Part shown: piece by piece, positions 11,327 through 19,971 of the stretch
How positions within the stretch are numbered: position 1 is the first letter of the stretch
Layout of the letters: each line of letters begins with the position of its first letter
Source: Bacteroidaceae bacterium
GTDB lineage: Bacteria > Bacteroidota > Bacteroidia > Bacteroidales > Bacteroidaceae
Assembly: GCA_017547385.1 (NCBI GenBank)
Contig: JAFYPU010000005.1
Span: 1-64,000 of the forward strand
Reading direction: 5' to 3'
DNA: 64,000 bases
Position numbers and translations under genes: made by a program
The notes under the pieces: generated by a model
Told to the model about the DNA's origin: nothing
The model's input: the letters and a program-made list of their open reading frames with translations, nothing else
Databases searched by the model: none

Positions 11327-11492
11327 CGCCGAAAGCACACTGCCCCATCAGCATCAGAAACCGACCTTCGGGCAGTGCGTTTCCCCACTCTCACCTATCA
11401 ACTTTGAGCAAGAAACAGCGTTTTGTCGTGCACACACGCGCCTTATGAAATTTTATACTTACCTTTGCCCTAATCACGAAGAGCAAAGACGC

Positions 11493-13028
11493 ATGAACAA
11501 AACACCCAACATAGCCGTGGTGCTGGCCGGCGGAAGCGGCCGCCGTGCCGGTGGAGAAGTGCCCAAACAGTTTCTGATGTTGGGCAATCGACCCGTGATA
11601 GCCCACAGCATAGATGCCTTTCAGCAAAATGCCGACATCGATGAAATTGCTGTAGTGGTGCATCCTGACCACGTGGAAAGAATCGGGCAAATGCAACGCG
11701 AATACGGATGGAGCAAGTTGCGCCAAGTGCTCACAGGAGGGGCAGAACGCTATCATTCGAGCATGGCCGCCATCAAGGCCTACACCGGTCGCGAGGTGAA
11801 CCTCTTGTTGCACGATGCCGCACGTCCGCTTGTTTCGCAAGAGATTATCAGCAGCGTATGCAGTGCTTTGACCCGCGCTGAAGCCGTGGGCGTGGCGGTG
11901 GATGCCATTGACACCATGGTGCAAGCCGATGCGCACGTTCTGACCCGTCAACTCGACAGAGCCTCCCTGCGACGAATGCAAACACCGCAGGCATTCCGCC
12001 TTTCGCTCATCGAGGAAGCTTATGCCAAAGCACTTACCGATCCTGACTTTCATGCAACGGACGATTGCGGTGTGGTGCTGAAATATGTTCCGCAAACCGA
12101 GATTAAACTTGTGCAAGGCAATGAGGAAAACATGAAACTCACCTATGCCGGCGACATGCCGTTGCTGGAAAACATATTGGCACGCCGCAACGCAGCAGAA
12201 ACACCCCTTGACGGCACAGACTGCCATGCCGCACTTCGGGCCTACCAGAAGCGACACCTGCGTGAGGCTCAACTCCGCATGCTTGACATTCTGAAAGCCA
12301 TACGCACCGTTTGCGACAACAACAACATCACTTACTGGCTCGACAGCGGCACACTGCTTGGTGCGGTGCGACACGGTGGCTTCATTCCCTGGGACGACGA
12401 CATAGACATCTGCATCAGCCGCAAAGACATGCCGCGCTTTGTGGAGGCAGCACAGCGCGAACTGCCATCCGGATTGTTCGTACAAACACCGCAAACCGAT
12501 CCTTCCGTGCGAATGCCCATGTGCAAAGTGCGCGACACGCGTTCGCTCATCGTGGAAGGGGCTGACGATTTTTCCAAACCTTATGCCAAAGGTTTGTATG
12601 TGGATGTTTTCCCCATGGAGCCGTGGCCGGATTTGCCCGACACCCTCTCGCGCCGCTTGGCACGCAACTATTGCAAAGCCAACGCCATCCTGCACAGCCA
12701 GCACTACTATTCGTGGCGGTCGGTGGCCGAACTGTTTTATTTCGGAGCAAAACGCGCCATTTGCCGTTGCCTATGGGAAATCTGCAAATGCACGGCACGC
12801 GGTCGCAAATGGTACTCCAATGTTCCGGAGAACAGCGGAAACGGCAACCGACACCTTGCTTCCACCATCTTTCCGGTGAGCAGCATCACTTTCGAGGGAG
12901 AAGCCTTTTCCGCTCCGGCCGATCCGGACCAATATCTGCGCGACCTCTTTGGCGAATACCGCACGCTGCCTCCCGAAGACCAACGAGGAGGACACGCCGT
13001 CTTCTACTGTACAGACCTAAACACTTAA
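11493..13028 (+). CDS. IspD/TarI-like cytidylyltransferase fused to LicD phosphotransferase
   Basis: 511 residues from ATG 11493; an in-frame ATG at 11445 would add 16 residues that do not fit the family. Residues ~7-235 are an IspD-type cytidylyltransferase: AVVLAGGSGRRAGGEVPKQF, LLHDAARPLVS and MQTPQAF are all present. Residues ~250-510 are a LicD domain with SGTLLGAVRHGGFIPWDDDI (about 284-303), the nucleotidyltransferase-like Asp motif. The first half should make a CDP-linked polyol or similar compound; the second should pass the phospho group to a glycan. The same two activities are separate proteins (ISPD and FKTN/FKRP) in animal dystroglycan modification. First gene of a four-gene plus-strand cluster, 20 bases before the next. 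It could also supply the housekeeping MEP-pathway activity. Confidence 0.88.
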   Translation: MNKTPNIAVVLAGGSGRRAGGEVPKQFLMLGNRPVIAHSIDAFQQNADIDEIAVVVHPDHVERIGQMQREYGWSKLRQVLTGGAERYHSSMAAIKAYTGREVNLLLHDAARPLVSQEIISSVCSALTRAEAVGVAVDAIDTMVQADAHVLTRQLDRASLRRMQTPQAFRLSLIEEAYAKALTDPDFHATDDCGVVLKYVPQTEIKLVQGNEENMKLTYAGDMPLLENILARRNAAETPLDGTDCHAALRAYQKRHLREAQLRMLDILKAIRTVCDNNNITYWLDSGTLLGAVRHGGFIPWDDDIDICISRKDMPRFVEAAQRELPSGLFVQTPQTDPSVRMPMCKVRDTRSLIVEGADDFSKPYAKGLYVDVFPMEPWPDLPDTLSRRLARNYCKANAILHSQHYYSWRSVAELFYFGAKRAICRCLWEICKCTARGRKWYSNVPENSGNGNRHLASTIFPVSSITFEGEAFSAPADPDQYLRDLFGEYRTLPPEDQRGGHAVFYCTDLNT

Positions 13029-13048
13029 CATAATCTTCCAAGAACCTT

Positions 13049-14857
13049 ATGCAAGCCATTATCCTTGCAGCCGGCATGGGCAAACGCCTCGGCGAACATA
13101 CACGAAACAACACCAAATGCATGGTGCGCGTCAATGGAGAAACACTCATCGACCGCATGCTTTCACAACTGGCTCGCCATAATTTGTCGCGGGTGGTCAT
13201 CGTTGTGGGATATGAGGGCGAAAAATTGCGCCAACACATCGGAAAACGCTACGACCATTTGCTGAACATCGAATTCCTCGAAAATCCCGTCTACGACCGC
13301 ACCAACAACATTTATTCCTTGGCCTTGGCCAAAGAAAAAATGCAGGAGGATGACACACTTCTGCTGGAAAGCGACTTGATTTTCGATGACGAACTTTTGG
13401 ACCTTATTCTCAAAGACGCACGCCCCAACCTGGCACTCGTGGCAAAATATCAGACGTGGATGGACGGCACGATGGTGCGCATCGACGACGATTGCAACAT
13501 CGTGAACTTCGTCCCGAAAAAAGCCTTCAAATACGCCGATGTCGGGCAGTACTACAAGACGGTCAACATCTATAAGTTCAGTCGCGCCTTCAGCACGCAG
13601 AAATATGTGCCTTTCTTGGAAGCTTATTGCAAAGCACTGGGCAACAACGAATACTACGAGCAGGTGCTTCGGGTCATCACCTTCCTCGATGCACAAGAAC
13701 TCAAGGCTCTTCCCATCGGTGCTCGCCATTGGTACGAAATCGATGACGCGCAGGATCTCGACATTGCCGAAACCATCTTTGCCGAGGGCGAAGAAAAGTG
13801 GAAGAAGTTCATGCGTCGCTACGGAGGATACTGGCGCTTCCCCGGTGTGCTTGACTATTGCTACCTGGTAAACCCGTATTTCCCCTCGCCACGCATGCTT
13901 GACGAGATGCGAGCCAATTTCAACACCTTGCTGACCGAATATCCCTCGGGCATGGGTGTCAATTCGCTGCTCGCAGGCAAATGTTTCGGCATCAAGCAGG
14001 AATATGTTGTGCCCGGCAACGGCGCAGCCGAGCTTATCAAGAGCGTGATGGAACACTCGGAGGGAAAATTCGGCGTTACCTACCCCACCTTCGAGGAATA
14101 TCCCAATCGGTTGGCGCAAGAGCGTTTGGAGATTTTTTACCCCGGCAACCATTTTTCTTACACGGCCGATGACCTGATGGAGCACTTCTCCAAAAATCCT
14201 GTAAGCACACTGCTGCTCGTCAATCCCGACAACCCGTCGGGCAACTTCATTCCGCGGGCAGACATCGTGCGTCTGGCAGAATGGACAGCCGAGAGGGGAA
14301 TGCGCTTCATCGTTGACGAAAGTTTTGTGGACTTCAGCGAAGATTACGAACACAACTCGCTGCTTTGCGACAGCTTCTTGGAAAAATATCCGCACGTAGC
14401 GGTAATGAAAAGCATCAGCAAGAGTTTCGGCGTACCGGGGCTGCGTCTCGGTATCTTGGCTTCAGCCCATCCCGACTTGCAGCGCGTGAAACGTGATGTG
14501 GCGATATGGAATCTGAACAGCTTTGCCGAATTTTTCATGCAGATTTTCAATAAATACACAGCCGAGTATGCCGTGACTTGTCGCAAGTTTCAGGAAGAGC
14601 GTACCCGTTTTCACGCCGCGCTCTCTGAGGTGGATTATCTGAAAGTGCTTCCCAGTCAGGCCAACTACTTCCTTTGTGAAGTGCTGCCACCGTTCACATC
14701 ACACGGATTGGCTGTGGATTTGTTGCAAAAGCACGACATACTTATCAAGGATTGCAGCACAAAGAAAGGCTTCGATGGCAGAAACTTTGTGAGACTGGCC
14801 ATACGCAACCGGACGGACAACGAGAAGTTGATAGAAGCCTTGAAAGAAATCAACTGA
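13049..14857 (+). CDS. Nucleotidyltransferase-PLP aminotransferase/decarboxylase fusion (PntC-like)
   Basis: 602 residues in two domains. Residues 1-240 are a LicC-type nucleotidyltransferase (AIILAAGMGKRL, NNTKCMVRVNGETLIDRML, LLESDLIFDD). Residues ~265-602 are a fold-type I PLP enzyme of the HisC/CobD class: GNGAAELI, NPDNPSG (392-398), DESFVDFS and the Schiff-base Lys458 in SISKSFGVPGLRLG. Family knowledge: Treponema PntC joins a CTP:aminoethylphosphonate cytidylyltransferase to a transaminase, and LicC activates phosphocholine. By analogy this enzyme makes an amino compound and activates it as a CDP derivative. No phosphonate mutase is in the window, so a phosphate ester is at least as likely as a phosphonate. 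Confidence 0.85.
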   Translation: MQAIILAAGMGKRLGEHTRNNTKCMVRVNGETLIDRMLSQLARHNLSRVVIVVGYEGEKLRQHIGKRYDHLLNIEFLENPVYDRTNNIYSLALAKEKMQEDDTLLLESDLIFDDELLDLILKDARPNLALVAKYQTWMDGTMVRIDDDCNIVNFVPKKAFKYADVGQYYKTVNIYKFSRAFSTQKYVPFLEAYCKALGNNEYYEQVLRVITFLDAQELKALPIGARHWYEIDDAQDLDIAETIFAEGEEKWKKFMRRYGGYWRFPGVLDYCYLVNPYFPSPRMLDEMRANFNTLLTEYPSGMGVNSLLAGKCFGIKQEYVVPGNGAAELIKSVMEHSEGKFGVTYPTFEEYPNRLAQERLEIFYPGNHFSYTADDLMEHFSKNPVSTLLLVNPDNPSGNFIPRADIVRLAEWTAERGMRFIVDESFVDFSEDYEHNSLLCDSFLEKYPHVAVMKSISKSFGVPGLRLGILASAHPDLQRVKRDVAIWNLNSFAEFFMQIFNKYTAEYAVTCRKFQEERTRFHAALSEVDYLKVLPSQANYFLCEVLPPFTSHGLAVDLLQKHDILIKDCSTKKGFDGRNFVRLAIRNRTDNEKLIEALKEIN

Positions 14858-14875
14858 CCCACTAAGAAAATAACA

Positions 14876-15883
14876 ATGAATATCTGTATTTGCGGAGGAG
14901 GCTCTCTGGGACACGTGTGCGCCGGTTTTCTGGCGGCACAACAAGGGGTGAATGTTTCAATCCTCACACAGCGGCCTGCGCTATGGGAAAAAGAAATCAC
15001 CATCACCGACCCCGAAAATAAAGTCTTCACAGGGAATTTGGCAACCATCACCTCTGATGCTGCCGAAGCCGTCAGCGGTTGCGACATCGTGCTGCTGTGT
15101 TTGCCCGGTTACCTCATAGAGAAAACGCTCCGGCAGATAGCCCCACACATAGGCACTTCAACCTTTGTAGGCAGCATTGTGGCCAGCACCGGTTTCTTTT
15201 TCTTTGCCCACGCTGTGCTTCCCGCAAACCGTCTCTTCGGTTTTCAACGTGTGCCATTCATTGCCCGCGTTCGCGAATACGGTTCGTCAGCTTCTCTCTT
15301 GGGATATAAACCGCGCATATCCGTCGCCGTGGAAAATGCTCCTGATGCAGAGATTTTCCGGCAAACCATAGAAAAACTGTTCCGCACCCCCACGGATTTG
15401 TTGGGCAGTTTTTATGAAGCAGCCCTCACCAACAGCAATCCCATATTGCACACCGGGCGTCTCTACAGCATGTGGAGAAATTGGGACGGCACACCCTACG
15501 ACCACAACATCCTGTTTTATCGCGAATGGACGGATGAGGCATCGCAATGCATCATTGACATGGATGCAGAGTTCATGCGCCTGTTGTCCCAACTCCCGGT
15601 CCGAAAAGACAGCATCCCAACCTTGTTGGACTACTACGAGAGCAAGGACGCAGCATCGCTCACTAAGAAAATCAGCTCCATACCTGCGTTTGTCGGCATA
15701 CAATCACCCATGAAAGAAACACCGGACGGATGGATACCCGACTTCTCCAGCCGCTATTTCACTGAGGACTTCCCCTTTGGCCTGCGCTTCATCGTGGAAC
15801 TGGCACAAAAGCATGGTGTTGCCACTCCCGTTATCGATGAAGTGTATCGCTGGGGAAAAAGCGTAACCGCATCGACCGAATGA
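14876..15883 (+). CDS. Opine (octopine/nopaline-type) dehydrogenase
   Basis: 335 residues. An N-terminal Rossmann domain (ICICGGGSLGHVCAGFLA, then CDIVLLCLPGYLIEKTL) is followed by the helical octopine/nopaline dehydrogenase domain. The conserved NPILHTGR places the likely catalytic His at residue 192. The family reductively condenses an amino group with a 2-oxo acid using NAD(P)H. It starts 18 bases after the PLP fusion gene and surely shares its transcript. In this context it may N-alkylate the amine made by the PLP domain, producing an opine-like head group. Metallophore synthesis is unlikely because no nicotianamine-synthase-like gene is nearby. Confidence 0.85.
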   Translation: MNICICGGGSLGHVCAGFLAAQQGVNVSILTQRPALWEKEITITDPENKVFTGNLATITSDAAEAVSGCDIVLLCLPGYLIEKTLRQIAPHIGTSTFVGSIVASTGFFFFAHAVLPANRLFGFQRVPFIARVREYGSSASLLGYKPRISVAVENAPDAEIFRQTIEKLFRTPTDLLGSFYEAALTNSNPILHTGRLYSMWRNWDGTPYDHNILFYREWTDEASQCIIDMDAEFMRLLSQLPVRKDSIPTLLDYYESKDAASLTKKISSIPAFVGIQSPMKETPDGWIPDFSSRYFTEDFPFGLRFIVELAQKHGVATPVIDEVYRWGKSVTASTE

Positions 15884-15959
15884 CACCACGGCGCCTCTTT
15901 TTTCTTTCAAATCCTTTTCAACAAAAACCACCCATCCTCGAACATTACACAACAAGCTC

Positions 15960-16964
15960 ATGATAAACGTTCCTGTTCTCATACTTTTTTTCAACCGACC
16001 CGATGCACTGTCGGCGGTGTTCAATCAAGTGCGAAAAGCACAGCCCTCTCACCTCTTCCTCTATCAAGACGGTCCCCGTGGCGAACGCGACATTCCGGGC
16101 ATTGAGGCCTGCCGACGCATCGTGGAAAACGTGGATTGGCCCTGCGAAGTGCATCGCTTGTATCAGGAGAAAAACTACGGCTGCGACCCTTCGGAATTTC
16201 TCTCTCAGAAGTGGGCGTTCAGCCATGTCGACAAATGCATTGTGCTGGAGGACGACAGCATTCCCTCGCTCTCGTTTTTCACTTTCTGCAAGGAGATGCT
16301 CGATCGCTACGAGCACGACACGCGTATCAGCATGATTACCGGAATGAACTATGACGAGGTTACGCCCGACATGCCTTACGACTACTTTTTTGCCACCACA
16401 TTCTCCATTTCCGGATGGGCTTCGTGGCGACGCGTCATCGACCAGTGGGACGAACATTACACCTTCCTTGATGATGAATTCAACTTGCGGCAACTAGAAG
16501 AGTATATCCGGGAGCGCAAATACCAAAAGGATTTTATCGAGTTCTGCCGTTATCATCGTCGCGTCGGCAAGGCATATTATGAAACCATCTTCCATGCTGC
16601 CATTTTCTTCAACTCCGGACTTTCCATTGTGCCTCGCGTAAATCTGGTGAGCAACCTGGGGGCTTGTGGAGAGGGTGTGCACCTGAGCGGCAGCAATGCC
16701 GACCTGCCCCGCGCCATTCGCCGCATTTTCGAAATGGGGCACCACGAACTTGAATTCCCCTTGCGCCACCCCCGATATGTCATCGAAAATGTGGCCTACA
16801 AGAAACGAATGTTCCGCATCCAGGGTTGGGGACACCCATGGCTCAAGGTGGGCCGTTCATTGGAAGAATTGTGGATTAACCTGCGACGTGGTAATTTCAG
16901 CCGCATCGGGCAGGCCATGAAAGCCCGCTTCCGCAAACTTATGGGCAAGGCTCGCTGGGATTGA
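15960..16964 (+). CDS. Glycosyltransferase (HlpA-like, GT-A fold)
   Basis: 334 residues. The N-terminus PVLILFFNRPDALSAVFNQV and the acidic motif VLEDDSIPS (about 95-103) are those of the GT-A glycosyltransferases often named HlpA-like in Bacteroidetes. ISGWASWRRV follows, typical of the same family. No signal peptide or membrane helix. Last gene of the cluster, 76 bases after the opine dehydrogenase. It probably adds a sugar to the glycan that receives the phospho group. It is followed by a modular repeat and a bidirectional terminator. Confidence 0.85.
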   Translation: MINVPVLILFFNRPDALSAVFNQVRKAQPSHLFLYQDGPRGERDIPGIEACRRIVENVDWPCEVHRLYQEKNYGCDPSEFLSQKWAFSHVDKCIVLEDDSIPSLSFFTFCKEMLDRYEHDTRISMITGMNYDEVTPDMPYDYFFATTFSISGWASWRRVIDQWDEHYTFLDDEFNLRQLEEYIRERKYQKDFIEFCRYHRRVGKAYYETIFHAAIFFNSGLSIVPRVNLVSNLGACGEGVHLSGSNADLPRAIRRIFEMGHHELEFPLRHPRYVIENVAYKKRMFRIQGWGHPWLKVGRSLEELWINLRRGNFSRIGQAMKARFRKLMGKARWD

Positions 16965-17189: not shown

Positions 17190-18800
17190 TTATGGTTGTT
17201 GCAAGGTGGAAAGACAGGCTTTGTATCGGTTCATGTCCTCGGTGTACATGGGGTCGTCGGGCATGCTCTCGAGCATTTTGTAAGAGTCGTCAAAATAGAT
17301 GCAGAGGCTCTTGGCCAAACTGTCGACATTGAACGAAGGCTTTGCGGAAACGATGCCGACGGCTGTTGCCAGCGAATCGGCCTTGCGTGAAAGCATCACA
17401 GCGTCATAAAAAGTGAAGGCTGTTGCATCATCGGGCTTTCCTTTCAACTCACGCAGCAGGCTGTCGCCTTTTCGGTAGAGGGTTTCTGCTTCCTGCATCC
17501 ATTGCTCGTGTTGCAGTTTGTCCTGCTGACTGATTTGAGGGGTGCTGGGAGAAACGGGTTGCACCTGCTCGTTCTCACCTTTACCGCCAACCAACAAAGC
17601 CACCACCAGTGCTATCACCACCGCTGCACCGCCAACGATGCCCCACAGCTTTTTGTTAGCACCCTTTCCCTTCGCGCCGGACGCCACAGGCTTGGCTGCA
17701 GATGCAGTCGGTGCGGGCTTAACAGCCTCTTTTGCCGGACGCTGCAACCGTGTGCTCTCGTCCGCAAGCGGTGCGGCAGCGCGTTTCACTGCGGTGTTTT
17801 CCTCATCACGCGGACTGCGACGGTCGTGCTTCACAACAGCAGCGGTTTTGGGCGAATGCTTTTGTTCGACAACCACCGAGGCTTCCTCCGCCCCGAGCAA
17901 AGCCAGAAAATCTCTGACCGTAGGCACACGGTCTTTTCGGCGCGGCTCCATGGCTTTCTGCACAGCCTCTATCACCTTTTGGCTCACACCGCGCTCCTGC
18001 AGCAAATGCAGCGGCAAACCATCGTTCAGCACATCTGATGACTTGGGCGGCGTGTGAGCCGTCAGCATCTTGAAGAGCGTGGCGCCCAACGCATAGACAT
18101 CAAGTGTGGGCGAGAAGTCGCGCGAGTTGTGATCGTTGGCCTGTTCGAGCGGCGCATATCCGGGTGTTCCCAACCCCACTGCCGTGCTCGATTCCGGCTC
18201 TCCGCTTTCGTCGTATTGCTTTGACAAACCAAAATCAATGAGGAGCAACGTGCCATCGGAGGTACGACGCATCACGTTCTTGGGTTTGAGATCGAGATGA
18301 AGCATGCGGCAATCGTGCATATACGCCAGAGCATTGCCGATGGCGCGGATGCAAGCCACGGCTTCGGCCTCGGGCAAACCGCGGCGGCTGCAAACATATT
18401 CGTCAAGCGAGGTGCCATCGATATGTTCCATCACATAATAATATGTGTTGTTGGCATCGATAAAGTCGAGCACTTTCACAATGTTGGGGTGGCTCATGCG
18501 CGACAAGTTGCGTGCTTCAGTGCGAAACTTCTGTGCGTATTTGTGCACAAGTCCCGAGTCCGAACTTTCCGAAACAGACCCCGTGGCATCACGGCTGCTG
18601 ACCTCCTGCATGAAGAACTCCTTGATGGCAACGCGCGCCTCGGTTTCAATTTCGCCCAAAGGACCGGCCACCTTCACGAAACCCGTGGCCAGATACGTAA
18701 CACCAAACGAACCGCTGCCCAGCACACCATCGATGCGGTAGCGATAGGTTTCTCCCTGCAACAGAGTGCCCGGGGCTAAAACATTTGTGGTTTGGGACAT
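17190..18800 (-). CDS. Transmembrane serine/threonine protein kinase
   Basis: 536 residues. The kinase domain (~20-290) has the glycine loop GSGSFG, VAIK (Lys60), HLDLKPKN (Asp near 169), DFG near 190 and GTPGYAPLEQ as activation segment. The HRD motif reads HLD. A basic and Ala-rich linker leads to one membrane helix (VVIALVVALLVGG, near 390). The ~130-residue C-terminal part is predicted outside the membrane and shows no known sensor repeat. It phosphorylates cytosolic proteins in response to an unknown outer signal. It lies 94 bases after a SUMF1-domain gene on the same strand. Confidence 0.92.
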   Translation of the reverse strand: MSQTTNVLAPGTLLQGETYRYRIDGVLGSGSFGVTYLATGFVKVAGPLGEIETEARVAIKEFFMQEVSSRDATGSVSESSDSGLVHKYAQKFRTEARNLSRMSHPNIVKVLDFIDANNTYYYVMEHIDGTSLDEYVCSRRGLPEAEAVACIRAIGNALAYMHDCRMLHLDLKPKNVMRRTSDGTLLLIDFGLSKQYDESGEPESSTAVGLGTPGYAPLEQANDHNSRDFSPTLDVYALGATLFKMLTAHTPPKSSDVLNDGLPLHLLQERGVSQKVIEAVQKAMEPRRKDRVPTVRDFLALLGAEEASVVVEQKHSPKTAAVVKHDRRSPRDEENTAVKRAAAPLADESTRLQRPAKEAVKPAPTASAAKPVASGAKGKGANKKLWGIVGGAAVVIALVVALLVGGKGENEQVQPVSPSTPQISQQDKLQHEQWMQEAETLYRKGDSLLRELKGKPDDATAFTFYDAVMLSRKADSLATAVGIVSAKPSFNVDSLAKSLCIYFDDSYKMLESMPDDPMYTEDMNRYKACLSTLQQP

Positions 18801-18894: not shown

Positions 18895-19971
18895 TCACAT
18901 CACAAGTCGCAAACCCGTTTCGCTGTTTTTGTCGGTATCGCCTGCTCCGGGACGATACAGGGAGAAGCCGCAATAAGAAGCATCGCTGTGCCATGAACCT
19001 CCGCGATAGGCACGTATCGTGCCCGTTTCCGGTCCTTGCGGATTGGTTTCGCGCGTTTGAGGATAGGCATAAATATAGTTGGCACACCATTCAGCCACAT
19101 TGCCTCCCATGTCATAAAGTCCCAACTCATTGGGGACTTTTCCGGCAACGGGATGGGTGCTCTGCTCACTGTTGCCCAAGAACCAGGCCACCTCCTGAGC
19201 ATCGTCGCTGCCGCAATACGTGCGATTGAAAGTGCGATTACCGCCACGGGCAGCATATTCCCATTCGGCCTCAGTGGGCAGACGGAATTTCAAACCCGTC
19301 ATGGCGTTAATCCGTTCGATGAAAAGCTGACAATCGTTCCAACTCACATTTTCCACCGGATGATTGGCGTATTTATTGTTCGATTTCAGTTTTCTCTTGA
19401 TGAAGTTCATCACTTTGTTCTCCTTGAATTCGGAAGGGTTCTCGCCCATCACAGCCATCCAGAGAGCCTGCGTAACTTCGGTCTCGCCGATGTAATAATC
19501 GTCCGTCAGGGTGATGTGATGCCGCGCCGAACCATCTTCTCCACTGCCTGCGATGAAAGTGCCGGCCTCAACCTTGACCATGGTGAAAGTAACCTCTCCC
19601 ACGCTCACCGTGCGCTTTTCCAATTCTTTCTGACGATTGCGAGCCGCTTGAGCAGCACTTACGGGAACATGCGGATTGTGAACAGACGGTGCCACCGGCT
19701 CCGAAGCGGTGTCGCTGTTGCTGTCCTCAGAACCACGGCCGGCATTTCTTTTCTTCTTACCGGCGGTTTTGCATTTCTTGATCCAACCGTTGATTTCGGA
19801 GCGCTTATCTCCGAATTTTCTCAACATGGCCGTGAAATGTTGTTCGGCTTGCTGATATTTTTGTGCTCGATAAAGCGTGATACCCTTGCTCAGATAGTCT
19901 TCATACGAAGAGGTCTGGGCCATGGCCGGCAAAGCCAGGAGCAGCATCAGAGCTAACAGAATTTTCTTCAT
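18895..19971 (-). CDS. Secreted SUMF1 (FGE-sulfatase) domain protein
   Basis: 358 residues with signal peptide (MKKILLALMLLLALPAMAQ). A short TPR-like helical pair follows (YLSKGITLYRAQKYQQAEQHF), then a basic linker and the SUMF1 domain from ~120 (TFIAGSGEDGS, ETEVTQALWMAVMG, RLPTEAEWEYAARGG, GLYDMGGNVAEWC). At the catalytic site RGGSWHSDASYC, the first of the two cysteines known in formylglycine-generating enzyme is Ser and the second is kept. It is therefore probably a binding or structural module rather than a sulfatase activator. Co-oriented with and upstream of the kinase gene, so a shared signalling role is likely. Confidence 0.88.
   Translation of the reverse strand: MKKILLALMLLLALPAMAQTSSYEDYLSKGITLYRAQKYQQAEQHFTAMLRKFGDKRSEINGWIKKCKTAGKKKRNAGRGSEDSNSDTASEPVAPSVHNPHVPVSAAQAARNRQKELEKRTVSVGEVTFTMVKVEAGTFIAGSGEDGSARHHITLTDDYYIGETEVTQALWMAVMGENPSEFKENKVMNFIKRKLKSNNKYANHPVENVSWNDCQLFIERINAMTGLKFRLPTEAEWEYAARGGNRTFNRTYCGSDDAQEVAWFLGNSEQSTHPVAGKVPNELGLYDMGGNVAEWCANYIYAYPQTRETNPQGPETGTIRAYRGGSWHSDASYCGFSLYRPGAGDTDKNSETGLRLVM

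Follow-up and report, generated by a model that had tools for sequence, protein, structure and literature searches.

Opine dehydrogenases classically yield free opines, known from redox balance, crown-gall compounds and metal carriers. Why, then, does the gene of such an enzyme stand among genes for nucleotide activation and LicD-type phosphotransfer in a Bacteroidaceae bacterium? The window analyzed here is the whole stretch of 64,000 nucleotides from contig JAFYPU010000005.1, and the cluster in question occupies positions 11493-16964, where four consecutive open reading frames (ORFs) lie on the + strand with intergenic gaps of 20, 18 and 76 bp. The original prediction, made from the sequence of this DNA, described four tightly spaced genes for a cytidylyltransferase-LicD protein, a nucleotidyltransferase-pyridoxal phosphate (PLP) protein, an opine dehydrogenase (ODH) and a glycosyltransferase; the ORF list and Pfam confirm the presence of the cluster and the first three assignments. 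We propose that the cluster decorates a glycan by LicD-type transfer and includes an opine step, a reading to which we give a probability of about 0.6.

The reactions, the keto acid, the order of the first three steps and the acceptor are put forward from sequence as follows. The PLP domain of the second protein would act on O-phospho-L-serine, in free form or after cytidylylation, and decarboxylate it to the ethanolamine level, and its nucleoside triphosphate (NTP) transferase domain would couple the product to CTP, giving CDP-ethanolamine. ODH would join the primary amine to a 2-oxo acid by reductive condensation, pyruvate being the likeliest partner, to form CDP- or phospho-N-(1-carboxyethyl)ethanolamine. 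Finally, LicD would move the N-carboxyalkyl-ethanolamine phosphate to a glycan built with the neighboring glycosyltransferase. Directly seen in support are the domain content, the conservation of catalytic residues, a conserved gene linkage and fusions of ODH to LicD.

The opine dehydrogenase and its partner gene

The ODH gene (14876..15883, + strand) encodes a member of PF02317 (Octopine_DH; E 6.4e-35, 120.8 bits against a cut-off of 30). Its profile match to octopine dehydrogenase is full-length (E 2.4e-45), and that to CENDH is weak. Residues H192, R293 and D298 are invariant in 19 aligned sequences and align with the His, Arg and Asp positions of octopine dehydrogenase, which we take to be catalytic. 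The substrates of ODH are not readable from sequence.

Linkage was analyzed in a family set of 301 genomes, drawn from a larger group, and in a relatives set of 61 genomes, 37 of them from the host genus. Within the family set, ODH occurs in 51 genomes and the NTP transferase-PLP fusion (NTP-PLP) in 72, with both present in 47, a co-occurrence with a Fisher odds ratio of 106 (p 9e-32, uncorrected for kinship). NTP-PLP lies directly upstream of ODH, on the same strand and at a distance of 2-151 bp, in 43 of the 47 genomes with both, and the arrangement of the cluster is therefore not due to chance. Only four of the 51 ODH genomes lack NTP-PLP, among them one with a partial ODH match and one with a match of 25% identity. 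All 12 ODH genomes of the relatives set are found within its 18 NTP-PLP genomes. The host genus includes Alloprevotella rava (G075), whose DSM 22548 genome contains NTP-PLP, ODH and LicD. The gene order, whose absence from related genomes the original prediction had named as grounds for abandoning it, is thus conserved.

A scan of species genomes yielded 371 confirmed relatives, and the best 80 of these 371 were analyzed as loci. They derive from Bacteroidota and Fibrobacter, apart from one labeled only 'uncultured bacterium', and an ODH ORF was recovered in 79. A PLP ORF stands directly upstream of ODH in 68 of the 79 loci, 64 of which have the NTP domain too. The PLP-ODH gaps in these 68 loci range from -8 to +45 bp; 39 pairs overlap, 31 of them by exactly 4 bp, the overlaps being upper estimates since ORF starts were taken as the longest possible. 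Fourteen of the 79 loci carry an ODH-LicD fusion, and these fusions are the most telling hint that LicD transfer draws on the opine step. LicD was detected by ORF in 56 of the 80 loci and by DNA-level match in four more (L085, L123, L135 and L142), and a flippase relative by ORF in 32. A PLP-derived amine, a CDP intermediate, N-alkylation by ODH and LicD transfer, the elements of the pathway first suggested, would fit one route in view of the NTP-PLP-ODH pair, the ODH-LicD fusions and the flippase and glycosyltransferase neighbors; the part that we drop is activation by the IspD-type cytidylyltransferase, discussed below.

An ODH devoted to redox balance or to a metallophore opine is disfavored by the NTP-PLP linkage and the ODH-LicD fusions. 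Other contexts are seen elsewhere: rhizobial ODHs adjoin genes annotated as cysteine synthase, and these and a Serratia plasmid ODH are 25-29% identical, while a Paraburkholderia ODH of 34% identity has no NTP-PLP within the fetched stretch.

The amino alcohol and the predicted tag

The NTP-PLP gene (13049..14857, + strand) encodes a LicC/PntC-like NTP transferase domain (approximately residues 1-245; Pfam NTP_transferase and NTP_transf_3, E 7.5e-13 and 6.1e-15, respectively) followed by a PLP domain resembling CobD and serine-phosphate decarboxylase (approximately residues 256-601; Aminotran_1_2, E 5.2e-31). The nearest relatives of the NTP domain are PntC, its best match, and LicC. E107 aligns with PntC Glu104, which passages of PMC6697681 place by the primary amine of 2-aminoethylphosphonate (AEP), and D109, E230 and D232 are near-invariant. 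A second Glu, E204, corresponds to PntC Glu196 only if the alignment is shifted by one residue, and this match is uncertain.

The best PDB match of the PLP domain is 6oux (E 9e-39), followed by CobD (3e-28). Over residues 2-392, 6oux in turn matches a protein from a Sulfurospirillum plasmid whose annotation reads 'norcobamide biosynthesis serine-O-phosphate decarboxylase', and we assume that 6oux is SMUL_1544 itself. In passages of PMC4585668, SMUL_1544 is a distant CobD homolog that might produce ethanolamine phosphate. Residues K458, N395, D423, R582 and R586 were aligned with CobD and 6oux, and each is at least 97% conserved across 67 related fusions. By the residue roles of CobD, K458 is presumably the Schiff-base Lys, and the Asp, Asn and Arg residues occupy what we take to be cofactor and carboxylate positions. 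The fusions share a CYL-NPY motif with the Sulfurospirillum enzyme that is absent from the Priestia and Rahnella relatives. In an alignment of nine rows, all eight displayed fusions have a Lys where the stand-alone Sulfurospirillum enzyme, like the aligned CobD, has an Arg; we would guess that this swap fits a cytidylylated substrate. In its PLP domain the protein resembles phosphoserine decarboxylases of CobD type and not the PntC transaminase.

CobD also offers another amino alcohol. If the PLP domain had true CobD activity, it would make (R)-1-aminopropan-2-ol phosphate from L-threonine phosphate, and the tag would be a carboxyalkyl-aminopropanol phosphate. CobD is indeed the best NCBIfam model for the domain (E 9.7e-51), scoring 172.8 bits, below the equivalog cut-off of 290.55 bits. 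The nearest solved relative, however, matches the serine-phosphate enzyme, with which the fusions share CYL-NPY, and we regard the aminopropanol version as very unlikely.

The resemblance to PntC, the best match of the NTP domain, raises in turn the question of whether the substrate might be AEP or another aminophosphonate, with phosphonate tailoring akin to that of PntC and FrbH. Such a pathway would also fit the surroundings of a distant NTP-PLP relative on Priestia megaterium pBM700 (L148:7992-9815), near a DXR gene and genes for ATP-grasp and acetyltransferase proteins; judging by the DXR neighbor, that locus looks like a fosmidomycin-type phosphonate cluster. In our own draft genome, though, the search for PEP mutase gave one partial match of 27.8 bits, below the cut-off, and no full-length match, which counts against phosphonates here. 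Among the 23 of the 51 known ODH genomes included in this search, the match was full-length in three and over the cut-off in four, the others having partial matches or none. The phosphonate route is disfavored accordingly and has, in our estimate, only a marginal probability.

Two further NTP-PLP relatives have unusual neighbors. On a Rahnella sikkimica plasmid (L146:7980-10458), the relative stands directly before genes for a CDP-alcohol phosphatidyltransferase and a HAD-type hydrolase, a possible unusual phospholipid or phosphoester pathway. In Fusobacterium vincentii (L144:13820-14869), a DUF1015 protein overlaps the NTP-PLP end by 14 bp within an O-antigen-like locus with LicD. This protein could be a free serine kinase supplying phosphoserine; none of the open-licence papers searched names DUF1015 and such a kinase together.

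Which decoration would result? N-[(R)-1-carboxyethyl]ethanolamine phosphate occurs in Proteus O-polysaccharide. Pyruvate and the ethanolamine phosphate group would therefore give a known natural product, and the predicted tag may be a chemically known one for which no genes are known. PMC9630907 names the same group, in its glossary and in a figure legend, among constituents of the drawn P. mirabilis O-polysaccharides and Klebsiella capsules. The decoration was at first predicted to be a new zwitterionic one; the moiety itself is perhaps already known. No account of how carboxyethyl-ethanolamine phosphate is made was found in the open-licence literature searched. That literature likewise yielded no characterized pathway joining an opine dehydrogenase to LicD-type decoration, in agreement with the original prediction. 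The passages of a Proteus O-antigen paper contain no mention of LicD, opine, carboxyethyl, nucleotidyl, cytidylyl or decarboxyl. Two other candidate sources for '1-carboxyethyl', PMC8657804 and PMC6801904, were set aside, as the passages in question concern carboxyethylidene (pyruvate acetal) groups. We see about an even chance that ODH has been recruited to tailor a CDP-aminoalcohol, that LicD writes a secondary-amine, amino-acid-like phosphate on surface glycans, and that the cassette supplies the genes hitherto lacking for decorations with N-(1-carboxyalkyl)ethanolamine phosphate.

The IspD-LicD protein and the donor of LicD

The first gene of the cluster (11493..13028, + strand; ORF list and Pfam) encodes an IspD-LicD fusion. 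Its start at 11493 is preferred over an alternative in-frame ATG at 11445. Between the two ATGs lies a Bacteroidales -7-like TACCTTTG at 11460-11467, where the full -33/-7 promoter pattern gave no match. The IspD domain (11511..12182, + strand) spans residues 23-246 (Pfam E 1e-48), and the LicD phosphotransferase domain (12312..12953, + strand; PF04991) spans residues 290-503 (E 1.5e-40, 140.2 bits against a cut-off of 22.6). In our own genome, a draft that is 86.5% complete, we found one strong IspD, one IspF and one LicD, the IspD and LicD being those of the fusion.

The original prediction counted this cytidylyltransferase as one of two nucleotide-activating domains of the cluster. The distribution of IspD does not support it as the activator of the cluster's substrate. 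Nine genomes of the relatives set carry the IspD-LicD fusion (G000, G001, G007, G008, G022, G023, G025, G027 and G033), and none of them has a second IspD above 100 bits; of three further IspD-LicD genomes, G075, G103 and G326, only G103 has one. Among the 12 IspD-LicD genomes examined, 11 therefore gave a single IspD. IspF, from which alone the methylerythritol phosphate pathway beyond IspD was judged, is present in eight of the 12, our own genome among them (G000, G007, G008, G027, G033, G075, G103 and G326) and was not found in G001, G022, G023 and G025, each 71-82% complete. The window IspD has the TDD motif of B. subtilis IspD, where TarI has TDAC or SDAC, and it scores 177.6 bits with the IspD model TIGR00453, just below the cut-off of 181.3. 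A second motif, HD-x-x-RP, was dropped as a mark of isoprenoid-type IspD because it does not discriminate: undoubted IspDs of other families show HDGVRP, HDAVRP and HDSVRP. In an IspD tree of 63 rows, whose bootstrap is not fully settled, the genus copies form one clade, with the exception of the G034 copy and of the second copies. This clade also holds the sole IspDs of G037, G039, G046 and G051, from other families, and is separate both from the second copies and from the commoner Bacteroidales IspDs. The domain is the one IspD found, and the genome also has IspF; it is therefore probably a housekeeping isoprenoid enzyme and not the activator of the cluster's substrate.

Its fusion to LicD nevertheless allows a different reading, in which IspD feeds LicD with an alditol phosphate, either of ribitol type or methylerythritol phosphate from CDP-methylerythritol, and NTP-PLP-ODH is a separate neighboring module. 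IspD and LicD form one open frame in at least 12 genus genomes, including some in which NTP-PLP was not found (G023, 71% complete; G103, 99%), and in A. rava the IspD-LicD gene is on a different contig from the NTP-PLP-ODH locus, which has its own LicD. Sister genomes, moreover, contain IspD-SDR fusions, like CDP-ribitol synthases, adjoining LicD and the same glycosyltransferase (G014, G031 and, from the DNA, G015), with further fusions in G009 and G010. An IspD that is the only copy found alongside IspF should, on the other hand, serve isoprenoids, and three relatives have IspD fused to the end of a protein of acetate/butyrate kinase type, which suggests that IspD fusions can arise without pathway meaning. 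LicD phylogeny also speaks against an IspD-fed LicD. In a tree of the LicDs from fetched loci (77 rows), the IspD-linked LicDs of the genus fall in one clade, and the window's LicD belongs to a subclade of 10 rows from nine genomes, all nine with NTP-PLP. This tree indicates that LicD and IspD have a history of their own and that the window's LicD is in the branch that goes with NTP-PLP. Across the 37 genus genomes, in which two of the LicD matches are partial, LicD is present in 16 of the 17 with NTP-PLP. On balance we consider an IspD-fed LicD unlikely.

Other IspD fusions occur in relatives. Bcs1/TarIJ-like IspD-SDR fusions were seen in L152, L153, L156, L163 and, from reading the DNA, L157; LicD is close to them in L153, L156, L157 and L163, and the glycosyltransferase family of the window occurs in L156, L157 and L163. 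These loci point to a likely alditol-phosphate cassette in sister genomes. The kinase-type fusions lie at L154:4873-6699, L159:6986-8857 and L165:2587-4473 (genomes G012, G019 and G035, all of the host genus). Pfam scans covered four IspD-SDR and two kinase-IspD fusions, the third kinase fusion (L165) being assigned by sequence only. In addition, two different isoprenoid genes occur near the ODH module. A DXS-like gene, named from its sequence, lies downstream of ODH or ODH-LicD in seven of the 80 loci (L095, L096, L098, L100, L105, L114 and L077), and IspD is present in five other loci by ORF (L087, L092, L099, L104 and L106) and in L070 by DNA-level match. Their proximity is perhaps a coincidence.

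Several observations weigh against a decoration cassette with an opine step. LicD is present in 12 of the 20 genus genomes without NTP-PLP, and in the sister group of the window's LicD subclade only four of 11 genomes have NTP-PLP. Since members of the clade are often without NTP-PLP, the window's LicD could use another donor. In 20 of the 80 ODH loci, neither the ORF search nor the DNA-level search of the fetched stretches, some of them short, detected a LicD. ODH is missing from 25 of the 72 NTP-PLP genomes, and LicD is nearby in only four of 11 fetched ODH-less NTP-PLP loci, a fifth having a weak LicD-like match of 24%. Pyruvate as the keto acid is a guess, and the choice of serine phosphate over threonine phosphate is made solely from the nearest relative. 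Two P. mirabilis records of unstated serotype gave an ODH match of only 25% and no NTP-PLP at E 1e-30.

The genomes that lack ODH are what would be expected if LicD added plain phosphoethanolamine from NTP-PLP, with ODH serving another purpose, such as redox balance or opine secretion, and using phosphoserine or a free amino acid as its substrate. Because NTP-PLP occurs with LicD and without ODH, in the Fusobacterium locus and in the four ODH-less loci mentioned above, CDP-ethanolamine alone would be a sensible donor. Yet ODH rarely occurs without NTP-PLP, the four exceptions including the partial and the 25% match, and it lies directly behind NTP-PLP and is fused to LicD in 14 loci. We therefore judge plain phosphoethanolamine to be quite unlikely and retain the cassette with an opine step as our preferred explanation.

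The fourth gene, the surroundings and known systems

The last gene of the cluster (15960..16964, + strand) had been called a glycosyltransferase. At E 0.001 neither Pfam nor NCBIfam gives a hit for it, and its sole glycosyltransferase hint in the PDB is a very weak one, POMGNT1 (5ggf, E 0.057). An E-D-D motif is invariant in the protein and 12 relatives of 51-78% identity, and such relatives adjoin ODH-LicD and IspD-SDR/LicD loci elsewhere. Because of this motif we regard the protein as a probable GT-A-type glycosyltransferase; with no family hit, the earlier call is probable and not proven. The protein had no PADLOC hit that would suggest a role in defense, and, as to carriage by phages, the phage collection contained no match. 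A DsbD-like gene flanks the cluster on one side and a protein kinase gene on the other, both on the opposite strand. Just past its end and convergent with it on the - strand, 17190-18800 encodes this kinase, of Ser/Thr type, and 18895-19971 a formylglycine-generating-enzyme-like (SUMF1) protein.

If the proposal is correct, the opine dehydrogenase family gains a new role inside a CDP-donor/LicD cassette, and candidate genes become available for a modification known from Proteus chemistry. Many Bacteroidota of rumen, gut and mouth would carry the NTP-PLP, ODH and LicD cassette, as would Fibrobacter, and a zwitterionic, amino-acid-like surface tag is predicted for Fibrobacter and for many gut and rumen Bacteroidota that are still uncultured. 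The novelty would lie in the opine step within LicD-type decoration, as the tag itself may already be known.

Among known systems, the Lic pathway, in which LicC and LicD act on phosphocholine, likewise has a CTP-activated amino-alcohol phosphate and a LicD-family transferase by glycan genes. Here, in contrast, cytidylyltransferase and decarboxylase-type PLP domain form a single protein, and the cluster includes an opine dehydrogenase as well. FrbH of FR-900098 biosynthesis also combines a cytidylyltransferase with a CobD-like PLP decarboxylase, but it serves a phosphonate antibiotic pathway, which is not known to include ODH or LicD. The Pnt pathway (PntC-AEPT of Treponema, from passages of PMC6697681, which also mention cytidylyltransfer by FrbH) resembles the cluster in its two-domain NTP-PLP fusion, a LicD nearby and a Glu near the amine. 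It differs in that the PLP domain here is CobD-like, of class I/II, and not a class V transaminase, and that full-length PEP mutase is confined to three of the 23 ODH genomes searched. SMUL_1544-type serine-O-phosphate decarboxylase (6oux) is the closest solved relative of the PLP domain, but that enzyme is stand-alone, belongs to a cobamide pathway and has an Arg where the eight fusions have a Lys. The CDP-ribitol synthases Bcs1, Acs1 and TarIJ and the ISPD-FKRP system share with the cluster a pairing of IspD-type and LicD-type domains, and the SDR fusions of sister genomes recall them. None of the cluster's four proteins has an SDR domain, however, and the IspD here, which has IspD and not TarI character, is the single copy found. 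Octopine dehydrogenase (3c7a) and CENDH (1bg6), finally, have the fold, as judged by sequence, and the His, Arg and Asp catalytic positions in common with ODH. Those two enzymes act on free amino acids, whereas the ODH family of this cluster is linked to nucleotide-activating and LicD genes.

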